Assembly: GCA_036172665.1 (NCBI GenBank)
Contig: CM069876.1
Location: forward strand, 35,061,001-35,125,000
Direction of reading: 5' to 3'
Length of the DNA stretch: 64,000 bases
From: Prosopocoilus inquinatus
Lineage: Eukaryota; Arthropoda; Insecta; Coleoptera; Lucanidae
Below are positions 1,262-19,385 of the stretch, piece by piece. Every line of letters starts with the position of its first letter. Within the stretch, counting starts at the first letter, position 1. Under the pieces are notes generated by a model that saw nothing but the letters and a program-made list of their open reading frames with translations, searched no databases and was not told the DNA's origin. A program made the translations under genes and the position numbers.

Positions 1262-1491
1262 CTACTGCCTCCGATTGGTGAGGATCGCAGCGAACTCGCT
1301 CTTCTTCTCCTTGTGCCTCGCGAGCAAGTGCATAGTGAAATGTATCTTTTGTTTGCCCTTATAGGGGCAGTACGAGCACTTGAACTGGGGCTCTTTTCCG
1401 CACTCCCATCTCAGATGGTTGTACAGGGAAGACTTGCGCTTGTACACTCGCCTGCACACTGTGCAAATGAACGCAGTGTCCACCAGATTAT
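1262..1491 (-). CDS. lola: lola alternative 3'-terminal exon T1 (C2HC + C2H2 finger pair)
   Basis: The exon starts after acceptor TTTACAG at 1492-1493 and encodes 75 residues plus TAG. Knuckle 1 is CTVC-X12-HLRWEC (CX2C-X12-HX4C). Finger 2 is CSYC-X12-HLLARH. The conserved turn ECGKEPQF joins them. The two bases before the first whole codon are AT, so the split codon would be Asp if the constant exon ends in G. A 17-residue basic tail follows finger 2. As a lola isoform end it would provide the sequence-specific DNA contact of a nuclear BTB regulator. It is the most distal exon seen here. No AATAAA is close to the stop. Confidence 0.88.
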
Positions 1492-1688
1492 CTGTAAAAT
1501 AAACCATGTAAAACAGACACAAACAAAAACGAATCGATTCATAACTATTAGTAGTCCAAGCGAGGTATATTTACATTTATGCCTTAAACTTACCACAAGA
1601 AGAAAATTTTAATGTACAACAGAAATTAAACCGATGGTGTCACTGTTGTTTGGCAAAACGAAGTTTTGATTTGTCTAAGGGTATAAGT

Positions 1689-1755
1689 CTCAGTGGCGCA
1701 GTGGTTAGTGCGGTGGTCTACCAAGCTACTGGATAGGCGGTTCAAACCCGAAGCC
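1689..1755 (+). repeat. tRNA-derived SINE head, copy 1
   Basis: An A-box-like stretch (TGGCGCAGTGGTTAGTGC from 1694) and a B-box-like GGTTCAAACCC (1739-1749) have tRNA-like spacing, but there is no cloverleaf acceptor stem, so this is not a working tRNA gene. A related head at 42853-42915 shares the CGGTGGTTAGTG-type A box, which suggests one SINE family. The 3' body is not delimited. Confidence 0.55.
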
Positions 1756-2094
1756 CAACTCGTTTTCTCGGTGTTGATAAATAGCGAATCACAAAGGCGT
1801 CCTCGACGTGCCCTTTCGAAATCTTACTCAAGCAACTTAAAGGCAAACACAATTTAAAGAATTCCCATTGCTGAAATATGTTAACACTAAAGGATAGCTC
1901 AAGATATCTATGGAAATCCTTAAGCTTAACCAAATAATACATGTGTGGATGGATGTATGTAGTTGAAGCCACACAGTTTTGCGAAGCATTTTCCTTTAAG
2001 GGCACCAACTTGGATTTCACTTTCCATCTTATTAAAATATGACGATTTTACTTAAAAAATAGGAGTAATGAGTAAGACAGACGTTGTTCATGCA

Positions 2095-2182
2095 ATCACC
2101 AGAGAGTCTATAATTTATGCACTTTATCATCGACGACTTGCATGAGTTAGTAAACTGCATAAATTGTAGACTGTCTGGTGAT
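2095..2182. mobile_element. Short foldback (MITE-like) element
   Basis: Two 27-bp arms (2095-2121 and 2156-2182) are inverted copies, with 25 of 27 positions matching by eye. The outer sequence is ATCACCAGA and the loop is about 34 bp. No coding capacity and no target duplication identified. Confidence 0.6.
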
Positions 2183-2360
2183 CACTTCACTGTCGGTCTA
2201 GCACCCAATAAATTTGTCTCACCCTGAAAGAACTTTGATTAAATAAAGCAATTGTAGAGTAATATGGTTTTATATAACTTGTAGGTGTATAATTTTAAAG
2301 CCCTCTAAATATCCCTTTTTTTTAAGAAAAACTAATCTGCTCCGCCGCCCCACCCCCCAT

Positions 2361-2644
2361 TCAGATCACTTCGTAATCGTTCTGCTCGTAGTCGAGTTCG
2401 AGTTTGATAGCCGCCTCCTTGCGACGGTGTACCAACGACAGCTTATGCCTCTGCAAGACGTGATGGAACTTGCAAGAGAAATTGCAGATGCCGCAGCGAT
2501 ACTTCGGCTGGATTCCGCACTCGTTCTTCAGGTGCGTGTAGACGGAGGTCTTGTACTTGTACAGCTTGTTACAGTTCGGACAGACGAACTCGCCCTTCCA
2601 GTTCTGTCTTATTTTCCTGTCGCCGGATTTGCGCGATCTCCTGC
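2361..2644 (-). CDS. lola: lola alternative 3'-terminal exon T2 (finger pair, long acidic tail)
   Basis: The exon follows acceptor TTTTTAG (CT at 2645-2646), split bases GC, and encodes 93 residues to TGA; it has no internal ATG start and is only readable from the acceptor. A basic linker of about 21 residues (RRSRKSGDRK) precedes CPNC-X12-HLKNEC. Finger 2 is CGIC-X12-HKLSLVH, HX5H instead of the usual HX4H. The turn is ECGIQPKY, without the usual CGK. The tail ends in an acidic stretch (LELDYEQNDYEVI). The length is above the array average because of linker and tail. Confidence 0.87.
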
Positions 2645-3552
2645 CTAAAAAGAGACGACGTCAGTACGAGCGAAAAACTCATCGGCAAGAAGTCGGTGAA
2701 AAAAAAAAGAAAAACTTCTTGGAAATCATCGAAACAACAAAACAGAAATTTGCGAAAAATAAGTTTTTATTTTGCATTAACATACACGTCCTAGTTGATA
2801 GCTAAAATAAATTAAAGTATATACAGGGTATTACCGAACGTGGTCATTTATTGAAACTGCGCGATCAATGTTGCGTGGTCAACAATGTTTTTGATTTACT
2901 TCGTTAATAAATGACAGATGTTATTAGTAACATCTCCTGTATTTAAGACTAGATTCAGTAAAGATGTTTGGGCGATATCCAGGCCCTATCTACACCATAT
3001 ACATCGAAGTCTAATGTTTTGATGGATACTGTATACTTATATAAAACCAGTACCATTTCAATGTGTTAATTAAACTGCGAGTTAAGATTGGAATTATGGT
3101 TCAGTCCTGGAATGTGTAGATACTTGCAGTCATAACAACGGTCATCAAAATGTGCTGTGCGAACCTGAGAATATGGCCCTTGAAGCTAAATGGCAGGACT
3201 TTCTTAATCGCCATAGACTTCAAAACCTTCTGCAACATCACCAGTAAGTTTGCTGACATGCGATGAAGACAAAAAAAAATGTGACTTGTTAAATAAAATC
3301 CGCAGGACTTTCTTAATCCCCACAGTCTCTTATTCCCCATTCACTCCTTAATCACCATCAGAAATCTTGCTGATAGACGATGGAGAAAAAAAAATGTTTG
3401 AGGACGGGATCTCTAATAATAAATATACCTCAATTAAACTAAGACAAGACAGAGAATTTCCTAAATTAAAATCTAAATTCTTTAGCATTTCGATAAATCA
3501 TTTGGAGAAGGTAACTAACCACAAACGAATAAATTATAAATCGATTTTAGAG
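2645..3552. other. Inter-exon stretch T3-T2, partly a local tandem duplication
   Basis: No gene. A block near 3188-3290 recurs at about 3295-3400 with an offset near 107 bp (shared GCAGGACTTTCTTAATC and a later GATGGAGA/GATGAAGAC plus A-run), so part of the spacer is a decayed direct duplication. A TACAGGGTATTACC piece near 2822 resembles common insect transposon ends, but no partner end was found. Confidence 0.4.
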
Positions 3553-3788
3553 CTAGATTTTCAGCTCGACTTGTTCCTCCTTGGCCTGATGCATCTGCAT
3601 ATGCCTCTTCAGATGATGCCTGTAATAAAAGACAGCGTCGCATCTTTCGCAAACGAAACTGGGCATTTTCCCGCAGGAAAACCGCAGGTGATTGTACCTG
3701 GACTTCCTGCTTTTGTAACTTTTGCCGCAGTTTCCGCAGGGGTACTCGCTCTTGTCTTTACGCCCGGATTTTCTTCCTCCTCCTCGCC
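3553..3788 (-). CDS. lola: lola alternative 3'-terminal exon T3 (finger pair, Arg/Gly/Lys linker)
   Basis: The acceptor is TTTGCAG (CT at 3789-3790) with split bases GG, followed by 77 residues. The linker RGGGRKSGRKDKSE is strongly basic and could act as a nuclear localisation or AT-hook-like DNA-contact segment (inference). Knuckle 1 is CGNC-X12-HLRFSC, with Ser in place of the usual Glu before the last Cys. Finger 2 is CERC-X12-HMQMH, a shorter HX3H end. The tail AKEEQVELKI is short and mixed-charge. A longer upstream frame reads into the intron and is not used here. Confidence 0.87.
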
Positions 3789-4094
3789 CTGCAAACACAA
3801 GGAACGGTTACAAACCGGAACTTCAGGGCGCGGGGCAGACTGAGACTTCAATACCTGCCTTGCAAACACATGTAAGTCGACGCATGCTTTATTACCAAAC
3901 TCAAAAAAAGAAAGGTGCTAGCTACAAATACAAACTTAGTTTAATACTGGCGATCTGATTATAACTTACAGGGTGATTTAATTATTTATGAATTACCTAC
4001 ACCAAATTACAGCCGGTTGTGGAATGGGGATGGAACCACCACATCACAGTTCAATTCTCCCATTGTGATTTCACCTTTTGCACACTATAAACAG
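3789..4094. other. Inter-exon stretch T4-T3, no gene
   Basis: About 300 bp of AT-rich spacer with no frame, repeat or RNA gene that I can support. An ACAGGGTGATTTAA piece near 3969 resembles insect transposon ends, but no inverted partner was seen. Confidence 0.35.
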
Positions 4095-4348
4095 TCAATA
4101 ATTTTTAAAGTCTTCCTCACTGTGGTACCGTTGGAAACAGTCGCCGGGGTGGAGTCCCGGCTTTCGCGAGCAAGTCTTGCACTGGTAAACGGTTTCACGT
4201 CTTCCCCCTTTGACCTTGCGGTTGCTGCACACCGCACAGTCCTTCGACTTCGTCGACTTCCAGATTATGTGCAGCTTGCCGTTCAGTCTTTCAATTTGGT
4301 CACTTATGGTGAACCGCCCAAATTTTCGAATTGGGGCCTCCTCGTTAC
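4095..4348 (-). CDS. lola: Alternative 3' exon T4 encoding a piggyBac-transposase cysteine-rich domain
   Basis: The acceptor GTTTTAG (CT at 4349-4350, with a CTAAC branch-like site just upstream) opens an 83-residue frame with split bases GT, the same phase as every lola exon here. It lacks the lola finger pair. It has the C-terminal zinc-binding domain typical of piggyBac-like transposases: an IERLNGK lead-in, CAVC (37-40), GGRRETVYQ, CKTC (56-59), PGLHPGDC (63-70) and FQRYHS with His75. In the autonomous family this domain follows the DDE catalytic core and binds transposon ends. No catalytic core is visible up to T5. Likely an exonised transposase fragment giving a BTB-transposase-domain isoform. 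The alternative is a dead fragment with a chance acceptor. The domain call is firm; its use by lola is inferred. Confidence 0.68.
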
Positions 4349-4826
4349 CTAAAACAAGAGTTAGAGTTTTTGATTTGGGCACTCGGTTCTTGCAAATTGC
4401 AAAAGGGAGGAAAACAAAGCCAAAATGTTGCGGCCTATTTTAATATCTTCAAAAGTCACTTCACTCATCAATCAGTTAGGCTTTAAAGATGGTCATAGGA
4501 GAAGGGTTTGATGTGACCACCATGTCCTCGTTGATCCTCGTTGATTTAAGCAAAATTGCTTTTAAGCATACAAATGAGATTGGAATTTTAAATTAAATGA
4601 ACCAATAATTTTTCTTCATTTGGCCCTAGATGTACATAGATGGCAGAGGTACGTACATGTAAGTGTGCAGTTACCCTTTTTGAGCTTGTAAAAAACATCT
4701 CCCCCCTGTTTATTTAGGCACCGATTAAAATATCTTGGTTACATGAGTTTTATTTGAAAACACATAGTATAAACAGATCATCATCATCATCATCATCACG
4801 ATCATCAGGTTCACAATTGAGCTTGA
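4349..4826. other. Inter-exon stretch T5-T4, no gene
   Basis: No piggyBac catalytic domain or terminal repeats were recognised here, which is where the rest of a transposase would lie for T4. A short ATC microsatellite sits at about 4779-4806. AATAAA for T5 (minus strand) is at 4749-4754. Confidence 0.45.
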
Positions 4827-5080
4827 TCAAAGGAACGCCCTTATGGTTTTGTAAATGGCGATGAATTCGTCCTTCTTCACCGAATGTAGGCGAAGGACGT
4901 GTCCGTGCAAGTTGTACTTTTGTTTCGTGGTGTAGACACAGTAGGGGCACTTAAATACGAACCGTCTTCCGCACTCGTATTTCAGGTGGCGGGTCACGGA
5001 ACACCGGTTTTGGTACAGTTTCAGGCACTTCGGGCACGCGAACCCCTCGATTTCCGGTCTCGGTTTCCACCTGTGAAAGC
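4827..5080 (-). CDS. lola: lola alternative 3'-terminal exon T5 (finger pair)
   Basis: It begins after CTTTTCAG (CT at 5081-5082), split bases GC, and runs 83 residues to TGA. The linker FHRWKPRPEIEG leads to CPKC-X12-HLKYEC. The turn is CGRRFVFKC, without the Lys-Glu-Pro of most exons. Finger 2 is CPYC-X12-HVLRLH. The tail is hydrophobic and basic, about 19 residues. AATAAA lies 73 nt past the stop at 4749-4754, which supports this being a true terminal exon. A plus-strand frame over the same bases is the antisense shadow. Confidence 0.88.
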
Positions 5081-5334
5081 CTGAAAAGCGTCAAGCGTTT
5101 ATTTATGTGTGCCGGAGGCCGCGCGGAGGTTTCCTTTTACTTACTTAAGAAAGAGAGAAAAACAAGTCCAGAAAATTATAAACAGAGGAAAGAAAACTGT
5201 GCCGTTCCAAATTAATTATAATTTATGCAATTTATGTATGAAGTGCTCATTTAAAAAAAAATTGGCAAGTACCTTTGAATTTTTCATAACTTTATAAAGC
5301 AGAGTTGCGTTCGAAAACTGCACCCTCGACTACC

Positions 5335-5438
5335 TCACTATCGATTTCTAACTTACTCAGTCTCATCTGCTTCAAGAAGCACAAGACTTCTTGAAACGAA
5401 ACAGCGAGACGCAAAATAAGTTAAAAATCGAGTGTGAG
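5335..5438. mobile_element. Foldback (MITE-like) element
   Basis: Arms of about 22 bp (5335-5356, 5417-5438) are inverted copies: CTCACTATCGATTTCTAACT against a right arm that reads CTCACACTCGATTTTTAACT on the other strand. A smaller inner hairpin (CTTCAAGAAG with CTTCTTGAA) sits in the middle. No coding potential. Confidence 0.55.
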
Positions 5439-6299
5439 AAAGATGCGGTCACACGTCCACGATGCACTCGAGAATGTTGTTCTTGAACACACCCTAAGCC
5501 ACTTTAAGTTGTCCTGTTAGGTTTCGAGCGAGATCCCTTTCTCATTCTATCTTCTTTGAAAAATCAAAACGAACTTCATGAATTCTTCAATTGAACACTC
5601 GTTAGTTTGTACGATACTTACGGAACTTTATGGTACATTTCCCATCACTCTCCTTTATGAAGTACGTATTTAGTTTCTTCAAATTCCAAATAAAATATAA
5701 AACAATATTTTTCTTAGAGGCAGAACTCTATAGGCCAGACAGTTTAGTATATACAGGGGGATTCGGGTTTCGGATATCTAGGGTGATAATTTTTTTTCTT
5801 TTTAGAATTTCGTAGAATTTCAGACTTTAACCGTAAGATTCGCCACTTACTTTTGTCTCCGTGCTTAAGGAAAGCACGTTCCTTTTATCCCTCACGGTCT
5901 TTCAAAGATACATAAGGCTTTGCCATAACGTCCTCAAGAAGTCGACAAGTTGAACTGAAAATTCATCTAACTACAGCATACCTTAACGGAAATAGAACAG
6001 AGCTGGGCTAAAAATATTTATTAGGGTACCATTCAATTAAAAATAAAGAAGAAAGCCTGAAGGGCTCGGCTAATAATCAATAGAAGGCAAAGAAGGGAGA
6101 AGGAAATATGAAATCGGCACATGCAAATCAATAGTGTACTTTCGACAACAAGAAGAAAATAAAAAAGACCTAGCCAATAACCAAAGAAGGATGTAATGGC
6201 AGCAATAAACGAAGAAAGGAACAGTATTGTTATCAACAAAAAAAGAAAAGGGGAAGATTTAGTTTAACTTGAAGGCTTCCGCTGCCGTCGTCCATGCTT

Positions 6300-6530
6300 G
6301 AATTCATGGCTTCCGGTTGGAACCGCGTGTCTCGGGTTTTCTCGACTGCCAACATTTCGTTCTTCATTGCAAAAGAACTTTCATTGAGACTGTGTCTTAG
6401 TCTCAACGACTAACGAGAAGCAGCAGCAGGATCACCAGCAGTAGCCCTGAGGAAGTTCTGTAACAAAGAACGAAACGTCGGCAGAAGAAAAAATCCGAGA
6501 CACGCGGTTCCAGCAGGAAGCCTAGAATTC
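6300..6530. mobile_element. Inverted-repeat element with hammerhead-like core
   Basis: The terminal arms are about 36 bp each, starting GAATTC and carrying GGAACCGCGTGTCTCGG on the left with its complement on the right; about 32 of 36 positions match. The inner sequence is also partly self-complementary. The plus-strand right half contains CTGAGGA, a short GTTC/GAAC stem and GAAACGTC at 6447-6479, the arrangement of a minimal hammerhead ribozyme. See the separate ribozyme entry. Confidence 0.6.
6442..6486 (+). ncRNA. Possible minimal hammerhead ribozyme (weak)
   Basis: Core order matches a hammerhead: CUGAGGA (N7 may be any base), a GUUC..GAAC stem II with a 9-nt loop, GAA, then ACGU that can pair with itself as a two-bp stem III, then C before the cleavage point. 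Stem I has only three clear pairs (GCC with GGC) and the base after CUGAGGA does not pair, so activity is doubtful. This compact form is known from Penelope-like elements. No reverse transcriptase is visible nearby. Confidence 0.35.
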
Positions 6531-6559
6531 AACCAGGGGAGGATTTAACTGAGAATTAA

Positions 6560-7290
6560 AGAGAGTTGTGACAGGAGTAATTGGAGAAGAAAAAACTAAC
6601 AGGAATACTGTCCACGGCACAGAAAAAAACGAGAGAGGCCAAACTAAGAGTAAAAAAATCATAGGTGGAGTAATGAAAATTCCACAAGTTTACAACAAAG
6701 AAAAAAACGAGAAAGGCTAAACTAAAAGTTAAAATTTTAGTTGGAGCAATGAAGAGAAAATAGCATTAAAATATCAAATGAACAACAAAAAAGAAGATGA
6801 GGAACTTTCCCTCAACACTTCCTTAGGTCAAACAATATGAAGTTGTTGCAAAAAAAAAATATTGGACAATCAGATTTGCTTTCCAAACGACCATCAACCA
6901 CAAATAAAAAGAAAAAATATGGAAGGAGGATTAGAACTAAAAAGATAATCCACCTTCCAGATAGATAATAGTTTTAGATTACTGTTGATAGTAGAGCCAA
7001 TAAAAGAAGGAGTAAAAAGTGAGTTTATGGGGAAAAGACTCGAAAATCAAATCAGATTCACGAAGATTAAGGCAATAGCTGAAGAATCTTCTTTTCTTAT
7101 TTGACGAAGATAAAAGAAATTTGGGACATTTGCTGTGCACCAAATGAAGAAGACAAAATCAATGCAGGGTCTTTGTTGATTCAGGCATAAAATCTGGTGG
7201 GGCAATCCCAACTTTGCCTTCAACACTTCCTTGAAGCAAACGACATCGAACCTGCTGCACAAAAAAAGATACTGGCCAATCCGATTTGCT
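6560..7290. repeat. A-rich decayed repeats beside LINE remnant
   Basis: A unit of about 75-80 bp repeats at 6625-6690 and 6699-6765 (both with AACGAGA.AGGC.AAACTA and TTGGAG/GTGGAG cores). A longer motif with CAACACTTCCTT and ATTGGACAATCAGATTTGC recurs near 6815-6885 and 7210-7290. The second copy leads into the LINE remnant, so these may be decayed parts of that element, but I cannot identify a product. Confidence 0.4.
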
Positions 7291-8650
7291 CATACTGAAC
7301 AGACAGTTCAAGAAATACTTGAATCACGTACTTGTTGTTACAAATAATTACACTTTAGTGCCAGGGGTGCTAAGAACTTTGCTTTTTTTTGCAAAGTCAC
7401 TCTTACGCATTCAGATACCAAAAGAGGAATGTACTGGGGATCTTATATTTTTTGACGTACAAAAGAAAAAAAGAAGAAAAAAAAACTCTGAAGACGAGGA
7501 AGCTATGTGCCTGGTCACTCTCGATGTTAAGAATACCATTAATACCGCAAATTGGAACAAAATCAATGAACAGCTCGCTCGAGAAGAGGGAGAGGGGGGT
7601 CTCTCTGCAGTTAAGGAAAATATTGGTAAACTAACCGGACCAAAGGAAGAGTGAGTGAGTGTGGGGCTCGGTATTGGACCCGACCCTGTAGAACGTCCTG
7701 ATGGATGGAGTCCTGAGACTGTCGCTGCCAGAGGGGGCAGAGACAATTGCCTTTGCTGATGATCTTGACATTACGGTCCAAACAAAGGATGGAGAGGAGT
7801 TAGAATATAAATAATAATATAAAGAATCCATGAGGAGATCAGTGAATGGATAAATGGAGCTTTCGCTCGATCCGGAAATAACAGAGATGATTTTGCTGAG
7901 TGGCAACAAAAGTGCCACCAAGAAATCAATGTGGTATTAATGAAAACAGGATTGAATTGAGTAAAACTTGAAAATACTTAGGCATCGTCCTGGATAGGAG
8001 TTTAGACTTCGGAAGCCACGTAAGACATATCAATGCGAAAGCACAAAAGATGGTAACAACCCTGACAAAGACTATGCCAAAGACGCGCGGGGCTGCTGAA
8101 AGTAAACGTAAAATCCGTAGTGGAATCCACAATACTATGCGCAGCCCTGGAACATGGAAAAGAGCAATTTGTGTTCAAAAGAAAAAAAAAGAACAACTAC
8201 GTACTATCCTGCCAACGTATTACAATGATGCAAGTTTGCAGAGCCTATAGAATTGTCTGGATGAAGGTCGTATTGGCACGCATGATTCCAATAGACTTAA
8301 TGGTCCTGGAAAGATGGTAAACTTGGGGTACGAGCCGCGAGGAAAAGGTCAATCTGAGAAATTAAGCAATAGCTTCCTGGCAGGAGAGATGGCTAGGCAC
8401 TTCTTCTGGTCCAAAGCATCTTGGACCAGAAGAATAGAATCATGGCTACTAAAGAAACTCGGCAAAATCACATACCAACCAACCCCGGCGATAAATGATA
8501 TTTTGAAGATTATAAATTTAGACGCAAGCTGGCAGACTCATCCGATTGTTTATGGTAACGAACACGTGGAGTTCACACTTTGAATGACGATGGAATAATG
8601 AAAGAGAGACACATAGACACAACTCCGGGCATCTCCTGAACCTCAATAAG
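7286..8650 (+). pseudogene. Decayed R1/Jockey-like non-LTR retrotransposon (RT region)
   Basis: Pieces of a reverse transcriptase can be followed on the plus strand across several frames. LVTLDVKNTINTANW (about 7515-7556) matches the RT motif usually written LDVKNAFNS. GVLRLSLPEG then FADDL (FADD near 7752-7763) is the catalytic motif block. SLDPEITEMILLSGNKS and LKYLGIVLDRSLDFGSHV follow, then a decayed thumb and C-terminal segment to about 8650. Frame breaks and stops make it non-functional. No ORF1, endonuclease or poly(A) tail was recognised. Clade assignment rests on motif resemblance only. Confidence 0.72.
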
Positions 8651-8846
8651 GGGCAGGCACTGTTTGCAGTCAATTTATAATTTGGTCTATTGTGGGGCAG
8701 AAAGTATTAAAACCGGGCTCCAAGGAACACTGGATACAACACTCGATTACGAGAGTTAAGTGGATCAAAGAGTTTGGATTTGGTTTGAAACATCATTCTG
8801 GGCATATGATGCTACACAATAAAACCTCGGTCTCCTACAGTAGCAG

Positions 8847-9148
8847 TACCGTAAAATAGCGCCCGTAAGTTGGCGTTGAATGACGTCACATAGAACGTGG
8901 TTTGCTAGAAAACCGTCACAGTCATCCAAGAAAACGTAAAAGGTTTCTTAAACGTTCGGAATCCTCTTTTGGTGATTTCTTATTTTCTAAATCTGTTAGG
9001 AACGATAAAATTGAGAGGAATCATTATGAAATATGTAAAATAAACTACACATAGTAGCTTTTCTTGCTTACTTTACGTCAATGTACGTCATTTTTTAAAC
9101 GCTACATAACGTCTTTCACCGTCAAATTACGGTCGCTACTTTACGATA
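8847..9148. mobile_element. Non-autonomous DNA transposon with ~40-bp TIRs
   Basis: The left end (TACCGTAAAATAGCG, then CCGTAAGTTGGCG and GACGT) and the right end read on the other strand (TATCGTAAAGTAGCG, then CCGTAATTTGACG and GACGT) match at about three quarters of 40 positions. The 300-bp length and absence of a frame fit a MITE. The target duplication was not resolved. Confidence 0.6.
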
Positions 9149-9257
9149 CCTTTATCCTAGGATCATGCTATTTTGCAGCTTGAGCAGTCCTCTTACAGAC
9201 TGAGATAATCACTGTTTATTCGGGAATAGTAACGCAGTTGCTACTGAAATAATGTAA

Positions 9258-9319
9258 CAATAAATTTGGATTTGACTCCTAACCACAATTGTGGTTAGGA
9301 ATCAAATCCAAATTTATTG
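9258..9319. repeat. Near-perfect 62-bp palindrome, family shared with 60859-60915
   Basis: Two 31-bp arms with a single mismatch and no loop meet at 9288/9289. The arms carry GGATTTGA-TCCTAACCACAA. A related palindrome at 60859-60915 has the same TTGGATTT.A.CTCCTAACCACA arm, and both copies are followed by CAGTCTCCAATACATT, so they belong to one dispersed family. Confidence 0.7.
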
Positions 9320-9910
9320 TTAGACAATCCACAGTCTCCAATACATTAAATATTGAAATAATTTAAGACAGCGAATGAAATTAATTTGTAAGAAAATATT
9401 TTTAACCTTTAACGGGACACTATTAAAATTGGGAAGAACATTCAACGTTTCACTATCGCCTGATAGCTCCTATAGTTTCACTATGGCTTGAAACCTTCCA
9501 AGATTAAAAACTATTTTCTTACAAATTTCAGAGAACAATTAAAATTAATTTTCTGTTTTTTTTTGTTATTGTCTTTTTACATCCCTACCAGCCCCAAGCT
9601 TTCAAAATATTTTCAAAAGAGCTTGTTTATCTTTTGTCTTATGAACTTAAATGCAGAAAACCCTACAATCCGAAAGAGCTACAAGCTATCTCTTACAGAG
9701 AATTTACATGTACTTAGATAGGATTAGAACCCATACCTATGCCCGTTCCTAACGAAGCGTTATTTCGGCTTTTCATATTAATGCCGACCTCAACGAAAAA
9801 CATACATTTCGTTGAATTATCACTTTTTATTTTTAAAATTGCTTCGAAAGCTCTAATCACAGCATTAAAAAAAATTATTAAACTAAGACTGACATCTATT
9901 AAACAGGTAG

Positions 9911-10134
9911 TCAAGTCCTGTGTAAAACTCTGGAGAGACCTCTTGCTTTATGGGGGTGATATCTTATGATGTGCGTCTTCAAGCTGTATCTGTACTTCGT
10001 CGTGTGCTTACAATAGGGACATTTAACGTCCTTCTCCTTCCCGCACTCGTACTTCAAGTGCCTCACGACCGAACGCCGGTACTTGTAGACTTTATTGCAG
10101 TTTGAACATGAAAACGCTTGCACGTTTCGACAAC
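9911..10134 (-). CDS. lola: lola alternative 3'-terminal exon T6 (finger pair)
   Basis: The acceptor is TCTTGTAG (CT at 10135-10136) with split bases GT, then 73 residues. The linker is only seven residues (CRNVQAF). Knuckle 1 is CSNC-X12-HLKYEC and finger 2 CPYC-X12-HIIRYH. The turn ECGKEKDVKC has Lys-Asp in place of Pro. The tail PHKARGLSRVLHRT is basic. AATAAA lies 80 nt past the stop at 9826-9831. It opens a compact cluster (T6-T8) with spacers of 113 and 186 bp. Confidence 0.88.
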
Positions 10135-10247
10135 CTACAAGACAAAACTGCGCTTAAAGTCAAGCTGGGAAAAAGAAGCTTCACTTAAATATACGACAAC
10201 AAACACAAGCGGTTAAGAGTAGGTGCGTTTATTGGGGAAGGCATAAA

Positions 10248-10438
10248 CTATAATATGTTGTGGAGTTTCTTCATGTGCAGCTTCAGGTAGTAATTCTGTG
10301 AAAGCACTTTGGGGCAATAAGGGCACTGAAATGTCGGTTCTTTACCGCAGCTGTACTGTAAGTGTCTGATCAGTGATTTTCTCCATTTATAGCTGCTACC
10401 ACAGGCGGAGCAGGTGTGTTTTATCAAGGGGTCTTCAC
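10248..10438 (-). CDS. lola: lola alternative 3'-terminal exon T7 (finger pair)
   Basis: The exon starts after GTTTTAG (CT at 10439-10440), split bases GT, and gives 62 residues to TAG; it contains no usable upstream ATG and is readable only from the acceptor. The linker is EDPLIKHT. Knuckle 1 CSAC-X12-HLQYSC has Ser before the last Cys. Finger 2 is CPYC-X12-HMKKLH. The chain stops three residues after the last His, one of the shortest tails in the array. AATAAA at 10228-10233 is 15 nt past the stop. Confidence 0.88.
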
Positions 10439-10624
10439 CTAAAACATATTTTAACGCTTAGGGGGGTGTTCTACCTTTGCCCCTACAATGACGAATGAAA
10501 ATGCACCCACCCAAAAATACACAGTTTTCAATTGAACGTAACTTTAATGAAATATACTGCAAACAAAAATAATTTAATACCGAAAATAAATACTAATCCT
10601 CCTCGGACACAAGGACGCTTGCCT

Positions 10625-10815
10625 TTACATTAGGTAAGTCATTTTGTTGTGCTGTGTGAACATATGTCTTTGATAGTTTCCCTTCCTGTACGTCGAGTAC
10701 GAGCACAAGCGGCAGTGGAAGGACGGCTCCTTTCCGCATTCGTACTTCCGGTGGTTCAGCAAGGACGACTTGTACTTGTACTGCTTTGCACAATCCGGAC
10801 AACAAACGAACGATC
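10625..10815 (-). CDS. lola: lola alternative 3'-terminal exon T8 (finger pair)
   Basis: The acceptor is GTTTTAG (CT at 10816-10817) and the split bases are GA, which excludes T as the last base of the constant exon because TGA would be a stop. It encodes 62 residues: a five-residue linker, CPDC-X12-HRKYEC, then CRLC-X12-HMFTQH, with ECGKEPSFHC between. The tail is NKMTYLM. A longer open frame on the same strand but in another register is a shadow. Confidence 0.88.
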
Positions 10816-11778
10816 CTAAAACAAACGGTCCATTAGTCGGGCATCACGAAGTAATCACATGTTAGATAGTAAGTGGGAAGTTCCAGAATGAGAGAAAAGC
10901 AATAAAAATATGAGCAAGTTTTTTTTTTGTTAATAAAGAGTTTATTTAACCGTGTTCTTAAATTAAACGTAAATTCATCTCCCAATACATTTTTAAGTAT
11001 TAAATTAAATAACCCGCCGCACATTTAATATTACAACAATAGAGTGTGACGTAATAACAAAAAAAAGTAGATTCTCTTTCAGTGAAAAAAATGAAATTTA
11101 AATGAATGCAGAACTTCCAACAATTAATTAAATTAACAAAACGTGTAACAGACAGACTTGCCTGCGTACGTGCTTACATGCTAATAGACATGTTTGAGGA
11201 AACGTAAAGAAGAAAATTGTTTATAACATGTACAAAATGGTCATTTCGTTTACTTTTGATCGGGTTTACGGGCTTCTCAATCCTCTTTCTGTTGAACCAA
11301 TTTTCTCATTTCTTTCGGAAAAGACTATTTTATTCAAATCTACAAACTCGTCTATGAACATATTCACGTATACTGCAGCCATAAATCACAAACAATACAC
11401 TTAAGGAAACGGATATGTCGAAGATACCTCGGTATGTACGGGTACAAGCTACTTCTAAGTCTTATTTACTCATCGATGTCATGTTAGTCCTCCTTATAAA
11501 CACATAACTGTAAATAACTATGTGTTTCTTTCACATTCAACACGACGTACACTCTCGAATGCGAGGATGAATCGTCTTTGACATATCAGGACCTTAAAGG
11601 TCTCCGCTCACTGGTCTTGACCGTAATCAGACCGTCACCCTTTGTAACCCATTACAACATCTGCACATCTGCAAGGACCGATACGATATCGTTGCTTAAC
11701 ACTTAAGAAGTAACGAAATGTTTTGTTCTCGGCAAAACTCTAGGCCGCGCAAGCCTGCTTGTCATATTCTGTACATCC

Positions 11779-12245
11779 ATACGCTACGCTCCCCCTCACT
11801 CCCCTACGATCCTCCCTAAGAGAGATAGAGGGTTTATAACGTAGCTTATCGTAGCATCGTTACCAAATTCATGTACTCCATGGCACGGGTTGGATATCTA
11901 TACGCTACGCTACCTCTCGCCCCTCCTACGAACCCCTCTAAGAAAAGTAGAAGGTTTGTAACGTATCCTAACGTAGCGTTAATACCAAATCCATGGACTC
12001 CAAGGTACGGTATACGAACCTCTCTAATGCCCGATTTCTTCACCTTACCTCCTTATAAATCTATCTGCCAGGTAATATCCTTAATATCCTTGGAAACTAT
12101 TATCGATACAATGGTTTCCAAAGATAATACCTGGCAGATAGATTTATCAGGAGGTGAAGAAATCGGGCCTAAGAAAAGTACCGGGTTTGTAACGTAGCTT
12201 ATCCTATCGTCGACACCGAATCCATGGACTCCATGGTACGGTCCA
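11779..12245. repeat. Three ~120-bp tandem repeats, last one interrupted
   Basis: Units begin with ATACGCTACGCT (11779, 11899) and contain AAGAGAG/AAGAAAAGTA, GGTTT(A/G)TAACGTA and CCATGGACTCCA-type segments. The third unit starts near 12011 (TATACGAACC), is split by a 142-bp MITE, and resumes at 12170 with TAAGAAAAGTA. The interruption dates the MITE insertion after the tandem duplication. Confidence 0.6.
12028..12169. mobile_element. PIF/Harbinger-like MITE, copy A, with TAA target duplication
   Basis: The ends are inverted (GCCCGATTTCTTCACC on the left, complement ending GGGCC on the right), with the inner CTATCTGCCAGGTAATA also inverted. TAA flanks both sides (12025-12027, 12170-12172). 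Three-base TWA duplications are typical of PIF/Harbinger elements. Copy B is at 19182-19309. Confidence 0.65.
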
Positions 12246-12369
12246 GCATCTGCCGAACCCGATAAATGATAACGCGATTTCTTTCATTTGTCGGTTCTAT
12301 TACGGTCAGATCCAGTGAGCAGAAACCATAATGTGCACACAAAAACAATAATGAATATCGTTGTGATGG

Positions 12370-12593
12370 TTATTTACATTTCTTAACGTCAAAAATGGGA
12401 TGCACATTGACCATGTGGGACGTGACGCTGCACTTCTGCTTCGCCTTGTACGTACACCCGAGAATGGGACAGTGAAAGCTGGGCTCTTTCTGGCACTCGT
12501 ATTTTTTATGCCTCCACAACGACCTCTGCACCTTGTAAGACCGCCCGCACGTATCGCAAGGGTACTTCTCGCCGTACCAACTTAAAAATCCTC
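12370..12593 (-). CDS. lola: lola alternative 3'-terminal exon T9 (finger pair, CX4C second finger)
   Basis: It follows TTTTTAG (CT at 12594-12595), split bases GA, and encodes 73 residues to TAA, with no internal start. The linker GFLSWYGEKYP precedes CDTC-X12-HKKYEC. The turn is ECQKEPSF, with Gln in place of Gly, shared with the neighbour T10. Finger 2 is CPILGC-X12-HMVNVH, the CX4C type. A short tail ends DVKKCK. T9 and T10 are likely a tandem duplicate pair. Confidence 0.87.
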
Positions 12594-12710
12594 CTAAAAA
12601 AGCATCACTCAGTATACAAAGTTGAACCTCGGAACCCGATGATGAATTAAGCTAGATTGTCAGACAGACATGGTTTATGAGAAGATTTCAGTTTTATTAG
12701 GTACTTCAAG

Positions 12711-12910
12711 TTACTTGGGGGCTTTAACGCTATGCTTATGACTAATGTGGATTTTGATGCTGTCTTTGCGCTTGGTCTTGTAGATGCAGTTCTTGTACGG
12801 ACAGGAGAAGGAGGGTTCCTTTTGGCATTCGTAATGTATGTGGCGTTGTAAGCTACGTTCGAATTTATAAGAGCGACCGCACGTGATGCAATGCACTTTA
12901 GTATTTAAAC
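12711..12910 (-). CDS. lola: lola alternative 3'-terminal exon T10 (finger pair, CX4C second finger)
   Basis: The acceptor is GTTTTAG (CT at 12911-12912), split bases GT, then 65 residues. The linker is short (LNTKVH). Knuckle 1 is CITC-X12-HIHYEC and finger 2 CPYKNC-X12-HISHKH. ECQKEPSF matches T9, 117 bp away. The tail SVKAPK is basic. AATAAA at 12693-12698 lies 13 nt past the stop. Confidence 0.88.
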
Positions 12911-13278
12911 CTAAAACAAAACATATTACTTCAAAATTTTCAACTCGGTATGTCTTCGGCGGATATTGACTTTCTTGGAACCTTTGGGAGAGTCATAATA
13001 AAATAATCTCCTGATTATGTTAGAGCATGCATACATGCATTACACTGGACGTATCACACACTAGAATTTCTGGGCTAATTTTGTGTGGAAATTAGGTCTA
13101 GAACTTCTACAGAAAACTCTGCGAATTAATTGAAAATGGTCCGGATTTCGTAGATGACATGTAATGCAAGCAAAACAGCGCATCGTTATTTATTGTTTAT
13201 CTCCAGCAATGGAATTTTCGGCTAACGGTTATTTCTGTAGGATGCTGAGTTCCGGGTAACCTTGACAAAGCTGTATGG

Positions 13279-13377
13279 GTACCGTACCTGAGTTGGTCGG
13301 CCGATACCTATCCTACCCTAGTTAGTCGACCAATGGCTTCGGTACACTAATCGAGTCGACCAACTCATGTACCGAGG
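13279..13377. mobile_element. Foldback element
   Basis: ACCGTACCTGAGTTGGTCGGC at 13281-13301 faces GAGTCGACCAACTCATGTACC near 13353-13374, with about 20 matching positions and a further GTCGACCAA copy in between. No frame. Superfamily unknown. Confidence 0.45.
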
Positions 13378-14465
13378 GTGCATTGGTGGACGAACGCAAC
13401 GTTCGACTTGCGCAAACGTCTTCTGAGATGCAAGTCGTTATCAAGGGAGCTTGACTGGTAACAACCAGGGTAGAGGGCGTTCCTTGGGATTTGCAAGTCA
13501 AACCATTTGGTAATTTGCATTTGTGCAGGAACGTTGATTGAACGTATTTCAATTCCTTGCACCACTCCGTTTAGGTAGGTGCGGCACATACGAGTAAAAT
13601 AACTAGGACTTATTTCTGGTAATGTATTATGTACGGGAGGGGAAAACCTTGTCTTTCGGATATCAGGATTAATACACCTCGCTCCTGACCCGACTGAAAC
13701 ACCCTGAGGGAGTCTCTATGGAAGATTAACTTTTCTACCGACCCCAAATTAATCTACTAAAGCCTGGTTTGTACGTGTTTTATTTATAGTTAAAACCCGG
13801 GCATTCTATGGTGACGTTGGTTAGTAGCACCGGCGACCGGTCATATGAAGGTTTAAGGTATTTTCCCGGTGATTGGGCTTGGTCTTGCCAGGGTTTTTAC
13901 AAGATAGGTCACTTAGTTGATCCACTAAAGCCCGATTTGCACGCGCTTTAGTCTAAAAGGCTAACCACTCGAACGGCGGTAGCACGGGAGTGGGCCGCGA
14001 CCGGTCGACTATAGGTTCGATGGTACCCATCTGAGAGATTCATTTTGATGGAGAACATTGTAAAAGCTAGTACGGGATAGTTAAGGATTGGAATATAATG
14101 TTGAAATTTTTTGTCGCTTCGTATAGATAATGGGCACATCAAAAATGTGCGTTGTTACGTTATATTTTTTAAGTTTTCCAGATCTATCGACCTCTGTGGT
14201 CGTCGATAATGTAAAGAACAAGCTTTCTGCCTGCGTTGATATGATAGCTAAACATGTGTCGGCTTGTTGCCAGTCGCGTTGACGAATTTGGTGTATTTTT
14301 GTTCGCGAATCGCTTGTTCTACGGCCACGTCCCCGCTAGCTGGTCGACCTTCGTCAACGCTGCGCCGTAAGTCATTTTGGTACTTCTCCTTTTTCGACTA
14401 CTTCCTCTTTGTGAACGAACTCGTTTCTGGGTTTTTACGTTATCTTTTCCCCTTCAAAAGAGGTA

Positions 14466-14620
14466 GTTCCAGGTCTTCCAAGCTTGCATCGAAGTAGCTC
14501 CGGGCTTACATCGTATAAGTAGTTCCGGACTCGTACCGAAGTAGTTCCGGATTTACATCGAAGTAGATGCGACCTCGCATAGCAAATAACTACGGGCTTG
14601 GAAGGTCCTGTTTTCGCTTA
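14466..14620. repeat. ~32-bp tandem repeat flanked by inverted sequence
   Basis: About four units of the type GTAGTTCCGG.CTTACATCGA lie between 14485 and 14585. The block is bounded by AGGTCTTCCAAGCTT on the left and GGGCTTGGAAGGTCCTG on the right, which are roughly inverted. No coding role seen. Confidence 0.5.
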
Positions 14621-16067
14621 CAGCTGTGCCCTCAGCGCCTCAGTAAGCTGCCACCTTTCTCTCTCCTCTTCGCCCCTGCGCGAAGCTTAGTGCTATAGGT
14701 TGGCTTAACCTCAGAGTGAAGTAGGAGCGCACCCATTTATTCTAATTTTCTTCTACGTCTCTTGACGTTCTCGTGATTTGGGGTAAACACTTGGGAACGC
14801 GCCGAAGCGTGATTCTGGTTGAGCGATTCGCAAGCGCCAAGCGTTTAAAGTCAAAAAAGTTGTCTTTTTGTGATACTGTCATCCATGTTGATTTGGCGAG
14901 TTTTAGTTTTTCTCGCCCGTTAAATTTTAGGGAGTATTTTAATTTTATTTAGTCTTATTTCTTATTTGTGCGTCTCAATGTTTTACTTGCATTGCTTGTG
15001 TAAGCTAACGCTGGAGTACTCTCGCCGTGGCGTCGTTGTCCTACTTTTCTTGGTCCATATTTGATTTATACGGTTACTGGACCATTATCGAGTAAATTTA
15101 ATAATAAACGTTATTTGTTTACCGCTTTTATTTTTGTCTTATTTTGGGGTCAGTTCTCTTTTTTTTTTTCAATATTACACGGCGCGATTCCGAATCGTCT
15201 TGTGTTGTTTACTCATGTTTACACAGAGGTCTTCTGGTAAGACATGAAGGGTGGTTTCAAACCACTCCATTGGGGAAACTGTGGGGGCAGATGCTGCGGT
15301 GTTGCGCCTTTTTGGGGTCATTTGAGTTACACTCTCCAGATCGTGTTTACCCCTACACTAACGTTTTGCGTAAGTCGCTGTGTGGCGCCCTTACGTGTAA
15401 CATTTCTTGTATAGCCACACTGTATCCACTGAGTAGGCGGTGTTACGCAATACACCCCACTTCGTTTATCCGAGGTGATAACCGACTTCACTTCTAGGCA
15501 ACCACTGACTACCACAAGTTACGGGTATCTACAGTCACAAAGAGGGGAACGTCTAGTTGCATATATCTCCGGGAGGAGCCGAAGGTTAAGATCGATGGAG
15601 CTGGATGAATGGATGACGTGATTGTGACTCGACCAAATTTGCCTGATACAGTCTCTTTGAAGTTTCAAAACCTCGCCAATCCTGAATTGGTTCACCAAAA
15701 TCTGGTTTGCGTAAGCATTAATTGGAAGGGTTAAAACTTAAACGTTCTAGCAGTAAGTCGTCTGGCTAGTCATACCGGGTTTTGTTGGCGTGTTAATTGG
15801 GCGTCTCTTGAGTAGTTAGGAGGTTAGTCATTTCAGAGTCTAGGGAAGGTTTGGCGCTTTGACGGATGAGCTAGTCTGCAAGGGTTTATGGTCATCGCCT
15901 AGTAGAAGACCAAGTTCAAACTTAGGACAAATAATTAGGAACCATCAAGGGTTAGGTGCGGGTACGGTCGTGTAAACCATCAAATGTTGGTACATTAGAA
16001 CGAAATACACCAAAAAATATCACCTTTCATTTATTATTTATACAATTTGACAGTCTTAACATCCGAT

Positions 16068-16267
16068 TTACTTAGTACCATGCACACAATTCATGTGACG
16101 CTTCCAATTACTTTTCAACTTTGTTTTGTATCCACATCCGGGGTAAGTGCAGAATATATTGGGCTGCTTTCCACACTCGTATCTTCGATGAGAGTACAGA
16201 GAGGGATAACGAGTGTACTGTTTATCACAACCGGAGCACGAATAAATCCTTGAGTTGTCATCAGACC
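16068..16267 (-). CDS. lola: lola alternative 3'-terminal exon T11 (finger pair, NAGNAG acceptor)
   Basis: The acceptor region reads TTGCAGCAG, two AGs three bases apart. Using the second (CT at 16268-16269) gives split bases GG and 65 residues. Using the first (exon start 16270) gives split bases CA and one extra Gly. Knuckle 1 is CSGC-X12-HRRYEC; finger 2 is CTYPGC-X12-HMNCVH (CX4C). The turn ECGKQPNIFC keeps CGK. The tail is three residues (GTK). AATAAA at 16030-16035 is 33 nt past the stop. Confidence 0.87.
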
Positions 16268-16437
16268 CTGCTGCAATAAGAAAGGCGTCAGTACAAAGTC
16301 TTTTATTATCAAAATGGAGTCCGTGTGCTCGGCAGAAGCGACAAGTACAGTTTCAAACTAACAAAATCAGACAACACTGCGATAGCCAAAATCAACATTG
16401 AATTGTGGCCTGTACTTAAAAAAAAAAATAAAATAAA

Positions 16438-16655
16438 TTAACGAATTTTTTTTCTGGTTCCACGTCCGTGTGCTTTCTTTAAGTGAACCGTGAGGTTACT
16501 CTTAACGTTCGATTTGTAGCGACACTTGTCCTGCGGACAGGTGAACTGAGGTTCAACGCCACATGCAAACTTGAGGTGAGCCCTAAGACCTCTTGCGTAG
16601 GTGTATCTTCTAGGGCACATTGGGCATTCGTACATTTTGTTTAGTCCAGCATTAC
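16438..16655 (-). CDS. lola: lola alternative 3'-terminal exon T12 (finger pair)
   Basis: The acceptor is GTTGTAG (CT at 16656-16657) with split bases GT; 71 residues follow. The linker is NAGLNKMYE. Knuckle 1 CPMC-X12-HLKFAC has Phe-Ala where most exons have Tyr-Glu. Finger 2 is CPQDKC-X12-HLKKAH. The turn is CGVEPQF. The tail GRGTRKKIR is strongly basic and may add nuclear targeting or DNA backbone contact (inference). Confidence 0.88.
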
Positions 16656-16977
16656 CTACAACTTACCACAAGATATCAGTAATTAAATATATTGATTTAG
16701 TAATCAGTAATGGGGGGGGTGAAATTAAAGCGCTATCTGTACGCTTCTCGCTACGTATTATTTACAAATAGGGTTGCTTAATTTGACGTACAAAAAAAAA
16801 CACGTATTCTTTTATATTTTATTACGAATTAAGTAAATGAAGAGAAATGGCACATGGACGTTAGAAACACGTGTGAACACTAGTTTACCTATTAGAAAGC
16901 AATGAGTACTTGAGATTAGAAGTGACAACATCTCGAAACTAATCACATCACAGTCAGAACAGAATAAAACGCGTAGC
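16656..16977. other. Inter-exon stretch T13-T12, no gene
   Basis: AT-rich spacer with a G-run near 16711 and AATAAA for T13 at 16818-16823. No frame or repeat recognised. Confidence 0.4.
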
Positions 16978-17189
16978 CTACACATCTTTGTGCTTGTTGG
17001 CGACGTGAGCCATGAGATTTCCCTTGCGCTTCGCTTTGTACGTGCAGTCCTTGAAGGGGCATGCAAATTGGGGTTCCTTTCCGCATTCGTACTTCAGGTG
17101 CTGGCTGAGTCCGCCCATGTAACTGTACCTGCGGTTGCAGTTGTGGCACGCGTATTTTCTTTCGTCGTAGGATTTGAACCGTAGCCTCC
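16978..17189 (-). CDS. lola: lola alternative 3'-terminal exon T13 (finger pair)
   Basis: It starts after GTTTCAG (CT at 17190-17191), split bases GG, and encodes 69 residues to TAG. The linker RLRFKSYDERKYA is basic. Knuckle 1 is CHNC-X12-HLKYEC; finger 2 is CPFKDC-X12-HVANKH, with ECGKEPQFAC between. The tail is KDV. AATAAA is 155 nt past the stop (16818-16823). A longer overlapping minus-strand frame in another register is not the product. Confidence 0.87.
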
Positions 17190-17782
17190 CTGAAACGAGT
17201 TAGGTTAAGTATCGTTTGGCTCAAGGGAAAAAATAATGGGTCGCTACCAAAAGAAAATTTTGGGTTAGTTTCGGTTACTTACGCAGATGTGAAGATCTGA
17301 TTCAAAAACAGGATGTTCCACTTAAGGCACTTTTAAAGCACAGCTTAGAATGATTTAAGAAAGAAACGCCACCATGAAGTGCATGGTTTGTAGGTCGGCG
17401 CCCTCACATGGATTTGAATTTGTATAAGGGCAAACAATGAGAAATAAGAAATAAAGGATGTATCTAAGCTTTCATGACAAAAAAAAGTCTTGGGTGGAGG
17501 GGGTCGGGGCGGACAACTTAAGGGCGTTTTCACACACACACACGGCATGGCAAAACCGGAGCCGGTGACCGTGCCGGCACCGGATGCAATGTAATCAAAT
17601 TACCTGCAGGGCCGAGGTATGTATGTGTGAAAAGTATAATTTAATCACATTGAATCCGGTCCCGGTGCCGTTACCTGCTCCGGTTTTGCCGGTATGTGTG
17701 AAAATGCCTTGCATTTCCAAATCAAATTGAAACAGCCTATATGTACGTGTAGGTATGTATTACTGTTACTAACAACTTTTTT
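17190..17782. other. Inter-exon stretch T14-T13 with one MITE
   Basis: No gene. AT-rich sequence, then the GC-rich foldback element at 17521-17709. Confidence 0.45.
17521..17709. mobile_element. GC-rich MITE with long inverted ends
   Basis: The left end AGGGCGTTTTCACAC and the right end GTGTGAAAATGCCT are inverted, followed inward by GGCAAAACCGGAGC and its complement, and by CGGCACCGGAT-type inverted sequence. Arms total about 75 bp. A CA microsatellite sits in the left arm. No coding capacity and no clear target duplication. Confidence 0.65.
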
Positions 17783-17991
17783 TTATGTAGCGTGCTTCCT
17801 AAATATGTGTCGCTTCAAAGATGTCCTAAGTTTGGTTTTATAGTCACATAGCCCGCAGAAAAATTGGGGCTCTTTGCAGCACTCATACTTCTTGTGGCTC
17901 GTTAAGCCCCTGCGATACTTGAAAATTCGGGGGCAGCTATCGCAAGGAAATGGGCCCGAGCTCTTTTTCTTCGGCTTCGTCTCCGCAAGAC
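17783..17991 (-). CDS. lola: lola alternative 3'-terminal exon T14 (finger pair, ECCKEP type)
   Basis: The acceptor is ATTGCAG (CT at 17992-17993), split bases GT, giving 68 residues. The linker LAETKPKKKSSGPFP is Lys-rich. Knuckle 1 is CDSC-X12-HKKYEC followed by a second Cys (ECCKEPQFFC), a rare change of the conserved Gly. Finger 2 is CGLC-X12-HIFRKH. It is closest to T18 (shared RIFKYRR, SH-K-ECC, FFCG, YKTK, SLKRH), 7 kb away. The tail is AT only. Confidence 0.88.
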
Positions 17992-18769
17992 CTGCAATGT
18001 ACTCCGATAAATAATTCAAGGCAATTATTTACGACAATTTTAAAATTTGGTGGCACTGAGGTTTCAGAAAGCAAAAAAAAGGTGGCGTACAGTCGTCTTT
18101 AGGCGTTTGTCTAAACGCCCGGGCAGTCTGTTTTAAGATGACGGCGAGTTGGTCAAAATGTAGATGGTGTGAGGATGTAGGTTATGGTTGTTAAGACTAC
18201 GCGGGGAAGGAAAAGATTTTTCTGCCAACAATTGGTAAGCGAGCAGCAGCAGCTAATTTAATTATTTCTTTAAATAAGTTCCTTCCCCGAAGCCCACACA
18301 CTTTCATACACTACTAAATTACTTACTTGCACCAATTGTATTGATTTTGTCAAATCTCAGGGCCTTGGATTACAAATCCAAACCAATCAACTACTGACCG
18401 ACTCGCCGCTCCTTCTTAGCTCTGAACACTCATCACGCATGCGCTACATATACTGCACTGACTAAGTGACCGATGTCTTACGTCATGATGACGACACGCC
18501 ACCTTCTTTTTGCATTCTGGAGCCCTCACGGCATTTCTTATGGTAATTTGGCTTGAAACGCCTATTACCCCAAAATATGATCAGATCTTGTACCATAAAA
18601 CGTGACCAAACGCATTCAGAACGACATTTCCCAACTGTCTGGATGATACCAACTAATCTCAATAGTACCCGGAGGACCTCTACTTTTAAATGAAAACGAA
18701 AAAGTCTTAAAATTTTATATTAATCAAAAAGTCATTAAAGTAAACAGTTCCCTGTAAGTAGTAAAGTTC
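17992..18769. other. Inter-exon stretch T15-T14, no gene
   Basis: Contains GGGGAAGGAA (18198) facing TTCCTTCCCCG (18281), possible ends of a small element, but too short to call. A minus-strand match to a B box near 18365 is also too weak. No frame supported. Confidence 0.35.
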
Positions 18770-18987
18770 TCATATTTTCTCCATGTGTTCGTGCACCATA
18801 AGCAAATGTCGGCGCAGACTCCCTTTGATTTTGGACTTGAAAGAGCACCCTCCGAAAGAACAGTAAAACTGCGGCTCTTTCCCGCACTGGTACCTTTTGT
18901 GGCTCTTCATGTTCCGATGGTATTTGAAAGTTTTGTCGCACGTGTCGCAGGGGAACACTCCCGGGCGACCAGAAAGCGGGGGATAAC
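18770..18987 (-). CDS. lola: lola alternative 3'-terminal exon T15 (finger pair, CX4C second finger)
   Basis: It follows ATTTTAG (CT at 18988-18989), split bases GT, with 71 residues. The linker YPPLSGRPGVFP is Pro/Gly-rich. Knuckle 1 is CDTC-X12-HKRYQC, with Gln before the last Cys. Finger 2 is CSFGGC-X12-HLLMVH. The chain ends EHMEKI. The FKYHRNMKSH core resembles T21 (YKYLRNMKAH), which suggests common descent. Confidence 0.88.
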
Positions 18988-19181
18988 CTAAAATGGGGGT
19001 TATTAAACGTAGTCAAATCTGATTGGATTTTCATGCAACTGTTTGCTTACTTTACTGTAATAAAGTAAAGTTAAGGCTTTGTAAGTCTTGAAGGTCGTTG
19101 GCTAGCGCGTCCATCGGTTTTTGGGTCTTAGGGTGCCAAAAATTTTTTAAAAGGTTAAGTCGACGATAGGTATGTACCTTA

Positions 19182-19309: not shown

Positions 19310-19321
19310 TTAGAGAGTCTC

Positions 19322-19385
19322 GCTCTGACTAACTGGATTTGAACTCGGAACCACTAACTCAGTAAGCCATTGTACTAATCCTGTA
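19322..19385 (-). repeat. tRNA-like SINE relic
   Basis: On the minus strand, TTAGTACAATGGC (A-box-like) and GAGTTCAAATCC (B-box-like) are spaced as in a tRNA-derived SINE head. No acceptor stem, so not a tRNA gene. It abuts the MITE at 19182-19309. Confidence 0.4.

Follow-up and report, generated by a model that had tools for sequence, protein, structure and literature searches.

The 64-kb window analysed here (the whole stretch of DNA presented above) lies within a large array of zinc-finger exons. A profile built from ten finger peptides of the window recovered 40 lola-type two-finger ORFs, all on the minus strand, and 127 such ORFs, again all minus, over 254 kb of the chromosome (C8:34991001-35245000). 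The array holds at least these 127 ORFs plus four in a 3.2-kb locus around a second exon of the kind studied here (T4b), on one strand throughout, the count covering the 254 kb and, 46 kb away, the T4b locus. The host gene is recognisably an arthropod lola, as judged from its BTB sequence together with the exon array. A second BTB exon lies upstream of the host gene on the plus strand (C8:35243266-35243484) and may be pipsqueak, judging by synteny. The main features are as follows; numbers without a prefix are window positions.

1262..59707, minus strand: part of the array covered by the window, with 40 zinc-finger ORFs on this one strand; BTB exon, hub exon and T4b fall beyond the window
4827..5080, minus strand: lola zinc-finger exon neighbouring T4 upstream (profile and ORF list)
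4349..4368, minus strand: phase-1 splice acceptor of T4 (aactctaactcttgttttag), scored 11.55 by the matrix
4095..4348, minus strand: T4, candidate alternative last exon with a piggyBac-type cysteine-rich domain (sequence, Pfam, homology, acceptor score)
4122..4271, minus strand: segment of T4 bounded by its outermost candidate zinc ligands, eight in all (H26 C37 C40 C56 C59 H66 C70 H75)
3888..3893, minus strand: AATAAA, possible poly(A) signal of T4, 201 nt past the stop; weak, the hexamer being common by chance
3553..3788, minus strand: lola zinc-finger exon neighbouring T4 downstream (profile and ORF list)
C8:35220579-35220400, minus strand: BTB exon of the host gene, outside the window, upstream of T4
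C8:35219282-35218514, minus strand: hub exon of the host gene, outside the window, donor CAAG/GTAAGG
C8:34943637-34943381, minus strand: T4b, second T4-like exon, 122 kb beyond T4 on the same strand of this chromosome

T4 consists of two exon bases, 83 codons (4346-4098) and a TGA stop (4097-4095). The acceptor junction reads ..ctctaactcttgttttag/GT AAC, with the AG at 4350-4349 and the exon starting at 4348, equivalent to C8:35065348. T4 is on the same strand as the array exons and, like them, sits behind a phase-1 acceptor, meaning that two exon bases stand ahead of the first whole codon. Phase 1 is the best acceptor phase for all 40 zinc-finger ORFs of the window, where a stricter acceptor script found phase-1 acceptors for 37 and none for the remaining three. 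Of the 127 ORFs in the 254 kb, 124 have their best acceptor in phase 1 and two in phase 0, and one has none. The first-pass annotation, made from the letters alone, had described an acceptor, an 83-codon open frame and a splice phase shared with the 40 zinc-finger exons, all of which are present. An acceptor matrix trained on 101 zinc-finger exons from the first 164 kb, with T4 left out, gives the T4 acceptor 11.55 bits. This is above 50 of the 101 training exons, i.e., of median strength. Outside those 101 exons, a score of at least 11.55 occurs at 19 of the 8,690 AGs on the minus strand, T4 being one of them, and at 23 of the 8,987 on the plus strand.

Other signals around the exon are less informative. 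The CTAAC motif annotated earlier as branch-like does occur in the T4 acceptor (4364-4360), with its A about 13 nt from the exon. Branch points usually sit farther from the exon, and the motif is thus weak evidence for one. No AATAAA occurs within 150 nt after the T4 stop, the nearest being the one at 201 nt. The hexamer follows 79 of 104 array exons, yet it is frequent by chance and its support is therefore weak. The peptide LVLGN read across the T4 acceptor was considered as a remnant of piggyBac coding sequence, relatives having LVGN, and rejected. Other lola exons read V/F-L-G from a ttttag/G acceptor, so that short upstream alignments are no evidence of homology.

The protein encoded by T4 carries the C-terminal cysteine-rich domain (CRD) of piggyBac and no C2H2 zinc fingers, which are typical of most lola last exons. 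It matches the Pfam domain zf-Tnp_2 (PF13842) at 30.4 bits (cut-off 24), and its best match among solved structures is the C-terminus of the piggyBat transposase (E 7e-4; runner-up E 0.61). A piggyBac-type identity had been proposed for the 83 residues and is upheld by both searches. Database relatives comprise 22 proteins with 47-66% identity, 16 of them with a precomputed PF13842 match. Because the search was restricted to proteins about as long as T4, these relatives could not include full transposases. T4 matches 38 of 44 conserved columns and shares its stop position with many of the 22 relatives, giving it a transposase-like C-terminal end. Searching the 22 relatives against the window returned no other place better than E 0.003, and no T4 relative was confirmed in viral_contigs and genome_contigs. 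An AlphaFold model of T4 built on 23 sequences was poor (pLDDT 48.7); it does not confirm the fold and was not used for fold searches. The predicted isoelectric points are basic in both copies (9.5 in T4, 10.3 in T4b).

T4 is flanked by lola exons. Its two neighbouring exons leave 1,038 bp of room, which excludes an intact piggyBac element spanning T4; the transposase is reported to be about 590 residues long (PMC7351741), and the remainder of it would not fit. The ORF list has no minus-strand ORF of at least 60 codons wholly inside 4440-4826. Judged by this space and these ORFs, no catalytic core lies at T4. The first-pass annotation had likewise seen no core beside the domain, and the intact spanning element that it said would refute its reading is ruled out by the gap. 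Inverted repeats and TTAA are present, none of them recognisable by eye as transposon ends. A blastn search of the T4 region against the genome found only T4 itself, a result that excludes close copies only, since the same search missed T4b at 72% identity.

Codon choice places T4 among the array exons. Its GC3 of 0.64 equals the mean of the 40 finger exons (0.64, sd 0.09), and the flanking DNA has a GC content of 0.35-0.36. Synonymous codon choice, with amino-acid content removed, was compared with 114 finger exons and 3,749 non-coding stretches of 83 codons. T4 ranks above 63 of the 114 finger exons, and its value is reached by none of the non-coding stretches. The hub exon is without this bias (above 0 of 114 finger exons; reached by 2,036 of 3,749 non-coding stretches), indicating that GC-rich codon choice characterises the array exons and not lola coding sequence generally. 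Two finger exons about 124 kb apart (C8:35054844-35055239 and C8:35178478-35178903) have an identical first-finger stretch (SSDSQFACRHCGKRYRWKSTMRRHEQVECGGKEPSF), which may be a sign of duplication or conversion inside the array.

As for a lola last exon, a hub exon with the BTB and a complementary donor phase lies upstream of T4. The hub exon is located 153 kb away on the same strand, and its donor falls after the first base of a codon, complementing the phase of T4. Joining the BTB exon, the hub exon and T4 in silico yields an open protein of 400 residues, in which Pfam finds both BTB (98.8 bits) and zf-Tnp_2 (25.3 bits, cut-off 24). In the genomic sequence, the transposase domain is thus in frame with the host domain over the predicted splice junction. 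We predict that T4 is spliced to the hub exon and completes a BTB protein. A host-transposase fusion made by alternative splicing had been suggested at this locus, and the suggestion is supported by the domain, the acceptor, the codon choice, the phase of the hub donor and T4b. The accompanying description of the BTB as a dimerisation domain needs revision. The BTB is present, but Drosophila Lola BTB domains are reported to form hexamers and not plain dimers (PMC11426971).

A whole-genome search with the T4 protein found at least 25 places. T4b is an open frame 70% identical to T4, with a phase-1 acceptor of 12.6 bits (above 61 of the 101 zinc-finger exons) and an AATAAA 172 nt past its stop. 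Its 3.2-kb locus contains the four lola zinc-finger ORFs counted above. The distance from acceptor to GRFT is nine codons in both copies, the eight candidate zinc ligands are at identical positions, and 55 of 74 residues are identical. T4b has no zf-Tnp_2 match in Pfam even at E 0.1. Over the 74 codons, silent divergence far exceeds replacement divergence (pS 0.727, pN 0.152; Fisher p 2.8e-14), with pS-pN above 0 in all 2,000 bootstraps. The resulting dN/dS of about 0.065 is rough because dS is saturated. Eight pairs of finger exons with 65-85% identity span pS 0.50-0.89 and pN 0.09-0.25, so the divergence of T4 from T4b is in line with that among the remaining array exons. A neutral-decay simulation on T4 alone, the outcome of which depends on the number of changes assumed, was dropped once T4b had been found. 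T4 and T4b have nine residues and a two-column gap in common, and none of these residues is seen in more than one of the 22 database relatives. The split of T4 and T4b from the rest has support of 98.3/99 in a tree of 28 rows (T4, T4b, the 22 relatives and four of the other own-genome matches). Another tree held T4 and 21 of the 22 relatives (P0019 was too short), without T4b. The other own-genome matches number at least 23, show 35-45% identity and in several cases lie in long piggyBac-like ORFs. At least three other types of piggyBac-like C-terminus exist in the genome, several of them in long open frames and as near-identical copies, and recent activity of these elements is possible.

T4 is probably a captured piggyBac CRD with the anatomy of a lola last exon, which was presumably captured once and then duplicated under purifying selection, and is predicted to be spliced to the BTB hub, likely giving a DNA-binding factor. 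We regard it as extremely unlikely that T4 is instead a dead piggyBac remnant with an acceptor, a phase and an open frame produced by chance. Clear homology to transposases and the retained transposase stop position would suit a remnant, and one in three insertions would match the phase by chance. Yet the strength of the T4 acceptor is reached by only about 0.2% of other AGs, codon choice is that of the array exons, and no close DNA copy of the region was found elsewhere in the genome by blastn. An intact T4b in the same array with pN far below pS is also difficult to reconcile with decay. Two insertions of one lost piggyBac lineage are an improbable source of T4 and T4b, even though transposases are themselves under selection, which could have acted before capture, and the two loci are dissimilar outside the exon. 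The DNA similarity of T4 and T4b ends at the exon borders, so a duplication leaves no flanking trace. Independent insertions would have had to reach the same array, strand, exon boundary and phase twice. They would also have to account for nine residues absent or rare in the 22 relatives, for at least 23 other genomic matches that reach no more than 35-45% identity, and for pS and pN values within the range of the eight finger-exon pairs. There is a slim chance that T4 has a promoter of its own or is trans-spliced, rather than cis-spliced to the hub. The hub lies 153 kb upstream, and Drosophila lola isoforms are reported to arise by trans-splicing as well (PMC11426971). Trans-splicing of T4 to the hub would, though, yield the same protein as cis-splicing.

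Under the favoured account of capture and duplication, a single event would have brought a piggyBac transposase C-terminus into position behind a phase-1 acceptor of the lola type. The captured exon would then have duplicated within the array into T4 and T4b, as the surrounding finger exons do, and purifying selection would have kept the zinc ligands in both copies. T4 spliced to the BTB-bearing hub would make a transcription factor, one that is likely to bind DNA. Self-association of the BTB would bring at least two basic CRDs together in this predicted isoform. In T. ni piggyBac, two CRDs are described on one palindromic repeat, and the structures suggest that a monomer is insufficient (PMC7351741). 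A BTB-driven multimer would suit a CRD of this type, for which a monomer is apparently not enough at a palindromic site. Together with the hexamers reported for the Drosophila Lola BTB (PMC11426971), the paired CRDs of T. ni piggyBac make presentation of the CRDs as multimers a likely mechanism. DNA binding by the T4/T4b domain is likely; the related layout of the CRD of Paramecium Pgm comes without DNA binding (PMC8086355). The isoform could be real with a CRD that binds chromatin or protein, e.g., the histone H3 tail, and not specific DNA, an unlikely outcome but one to be taken seriously. The Pgm CRD, which also has an upstream histidine, is described as showing weak binding to the H3 tail and none to DNA (PMC8086355). 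This behaviour is tied in the same report to an acidic CRD with a pI of 5.48, whereas T4 and T4b are basic. Nearly all Drosophila lola last exons are moreover reported to encode DNA-binding domains (PMC10551640), which argues for specific DNA binding.

The 254 kb were also scanned for non-finger phase-1 ORFs behind good acceptors. The scan returned 36, mostly plain low-complexity or AT-rich frames, and three candidate exons stand out.

C8:35190735-35190287, minus strand: CENP-B/Tc5-type exon, 148 codons, phase 1, acceptor 13.2 (Pfam)
C8:35218376-35218123, minus strand: Psq-type HTH exon, phase 1, directly after the hub (25.7 bits, cut-off 20.4)
C8:35197315-35197095, minus strand: Cys-rich exon, 72 codons, phase 1, acceptor 8.0 (above 10 of 101)

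The CENP-B/Tc5-type exon has the domains of a Tigger/pogo-like transposase (CENP-B_N 43.4 bits, HTH_Tnp_Tc5 69.2 bits), and its best solved match is human CENP-B (E 1.4e-11). Its stop lies just past the second HTH, where a database protein with 59% identity continues; faint similarity to that protein extends a few codons beyond the stop of the exon. Codon choice is less array-like than in T4 (above 19 of 114 finger exons; reached by 32 of 3,749 non-coding stretches). The Psq-type exon, the first ORF past the hub to have a good phase-1 acceptor, shows no array-like codon choice (above 1 of 114). A 37-codon phase-1 ORF (FGGWHMGNQSQDEVF..) follows it on the minus strand at C8:35218014, with an acceptor of 10.9 and no Pfam match. 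The Cys-rich exon has an AATAAA 22 nt past its stop, and the search found no homologue for it. A link to piggyBac is not claimed for this exon, as zf-Tnp_2 scores 11.2 bits, below the cut-off. We tentatively suggest, with more doubt than confidence, that the lola array is a standing platform that catches DNA-binding domains of transposases. A domain landing in phase 1 would create a new BTB factor and leave the other isoforms undisturbed. At least two such domains might have been kept by separate events (the duplicated piggyBac CRD and the CENP-B/Tc5 HTH) besides the Psq HTH, and some isoforms might police the source transposons.

A foreign DNA-binding domain could enter a gene with a hub and tandem DNA-binding exons as an extra choice and then be duplicated and kept. 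Transposase capture by alternative splicing is thereby testable at one locus, with more than 100 finger exons as internal controls. Provided that the isoform is made, it would offer a naturally occurring BTB-piggyBac factor for testing whether a domesticated domain keeps transposon ends as its targets or gains other sites. The host gene resembles lola as described in Drosophila, Nasonia and Apis, with a hub exon and many 3' exons that mostly encode zinc fingers (PMC10551640, PMC5000498). Its array is comparable in size to those reported for Nasonia (more than 180 alternates) and Apis (58) (PMC5000498). In Drosophila, 17 of 20 last exons have zinc fingers (PMC10551640), so fingers are not obligatory in a lola last exon. 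These descriptions present zinc-finger exons and no transposase domain, unlike T4, and among the open-licence papers listed, none describes, by its title or abstract opening, a lola isoform that carries a transposase domain.

Among transposases, the CRDs of T. ni piggyBac, piggyBat and Pgm resemble T4 in their paired CxxC motifs, further Cys/His residues and C-terminal position before the stop (PMC7351741, PMC8086355). The upstream histidine of T4 recalls the CRD layout of Pgm and some piggyBac-like transposases (PMC8086355). T4 differs from piggyBac transposases in having no catalytic core, and two residues that most relatives have ahead of the first CxxC are missing from both T4 and T4b. In mod(mdg4), likewise a BTB gene, the 3' alternatives are reported to encode mostly a zinc-binding domain other than C2H2, namely FLYWCH, which belongs to the WRKY superfamily and, in contrast to T4, not to piggyBac (PMC11426971). 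The ZBTB11 family, which combines BTB/POZ with an integrase zinc-binding domain, parallels the predicted fusion as a BTB zinc-finger family that took up a domain from a mobile element. Its integrase domain is described as constitutive and N-terminal, found in vertebrates, not an alternative last exon and not of piggyBac origin (PMC12062965). A close parallel in exon arrangement comes from CSB-PGBD3, a primate host-transposase fusion with piggyBac as an alternative 3' terminal exon (PMC2268245). Part of a piggyBac sequence inside a host gene, with an in-frame acceptor ahead of it, forms the alternative 3' terminal exon in CSB-PGBD3 and is predicted to do so in T4; CSB-PGBD3 also has a poly(A) signal. 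In CSB-PGBD3, a single intron of a SWI/SNF gene is described as containing the complete coding region of the transposase, whereas T4 has the C-terminal domain only, is one of more than 100 alternative last exons and appears duplicated as an exon. By analogy, CSB-PGBD3 is a mechanistic precedent for T4.
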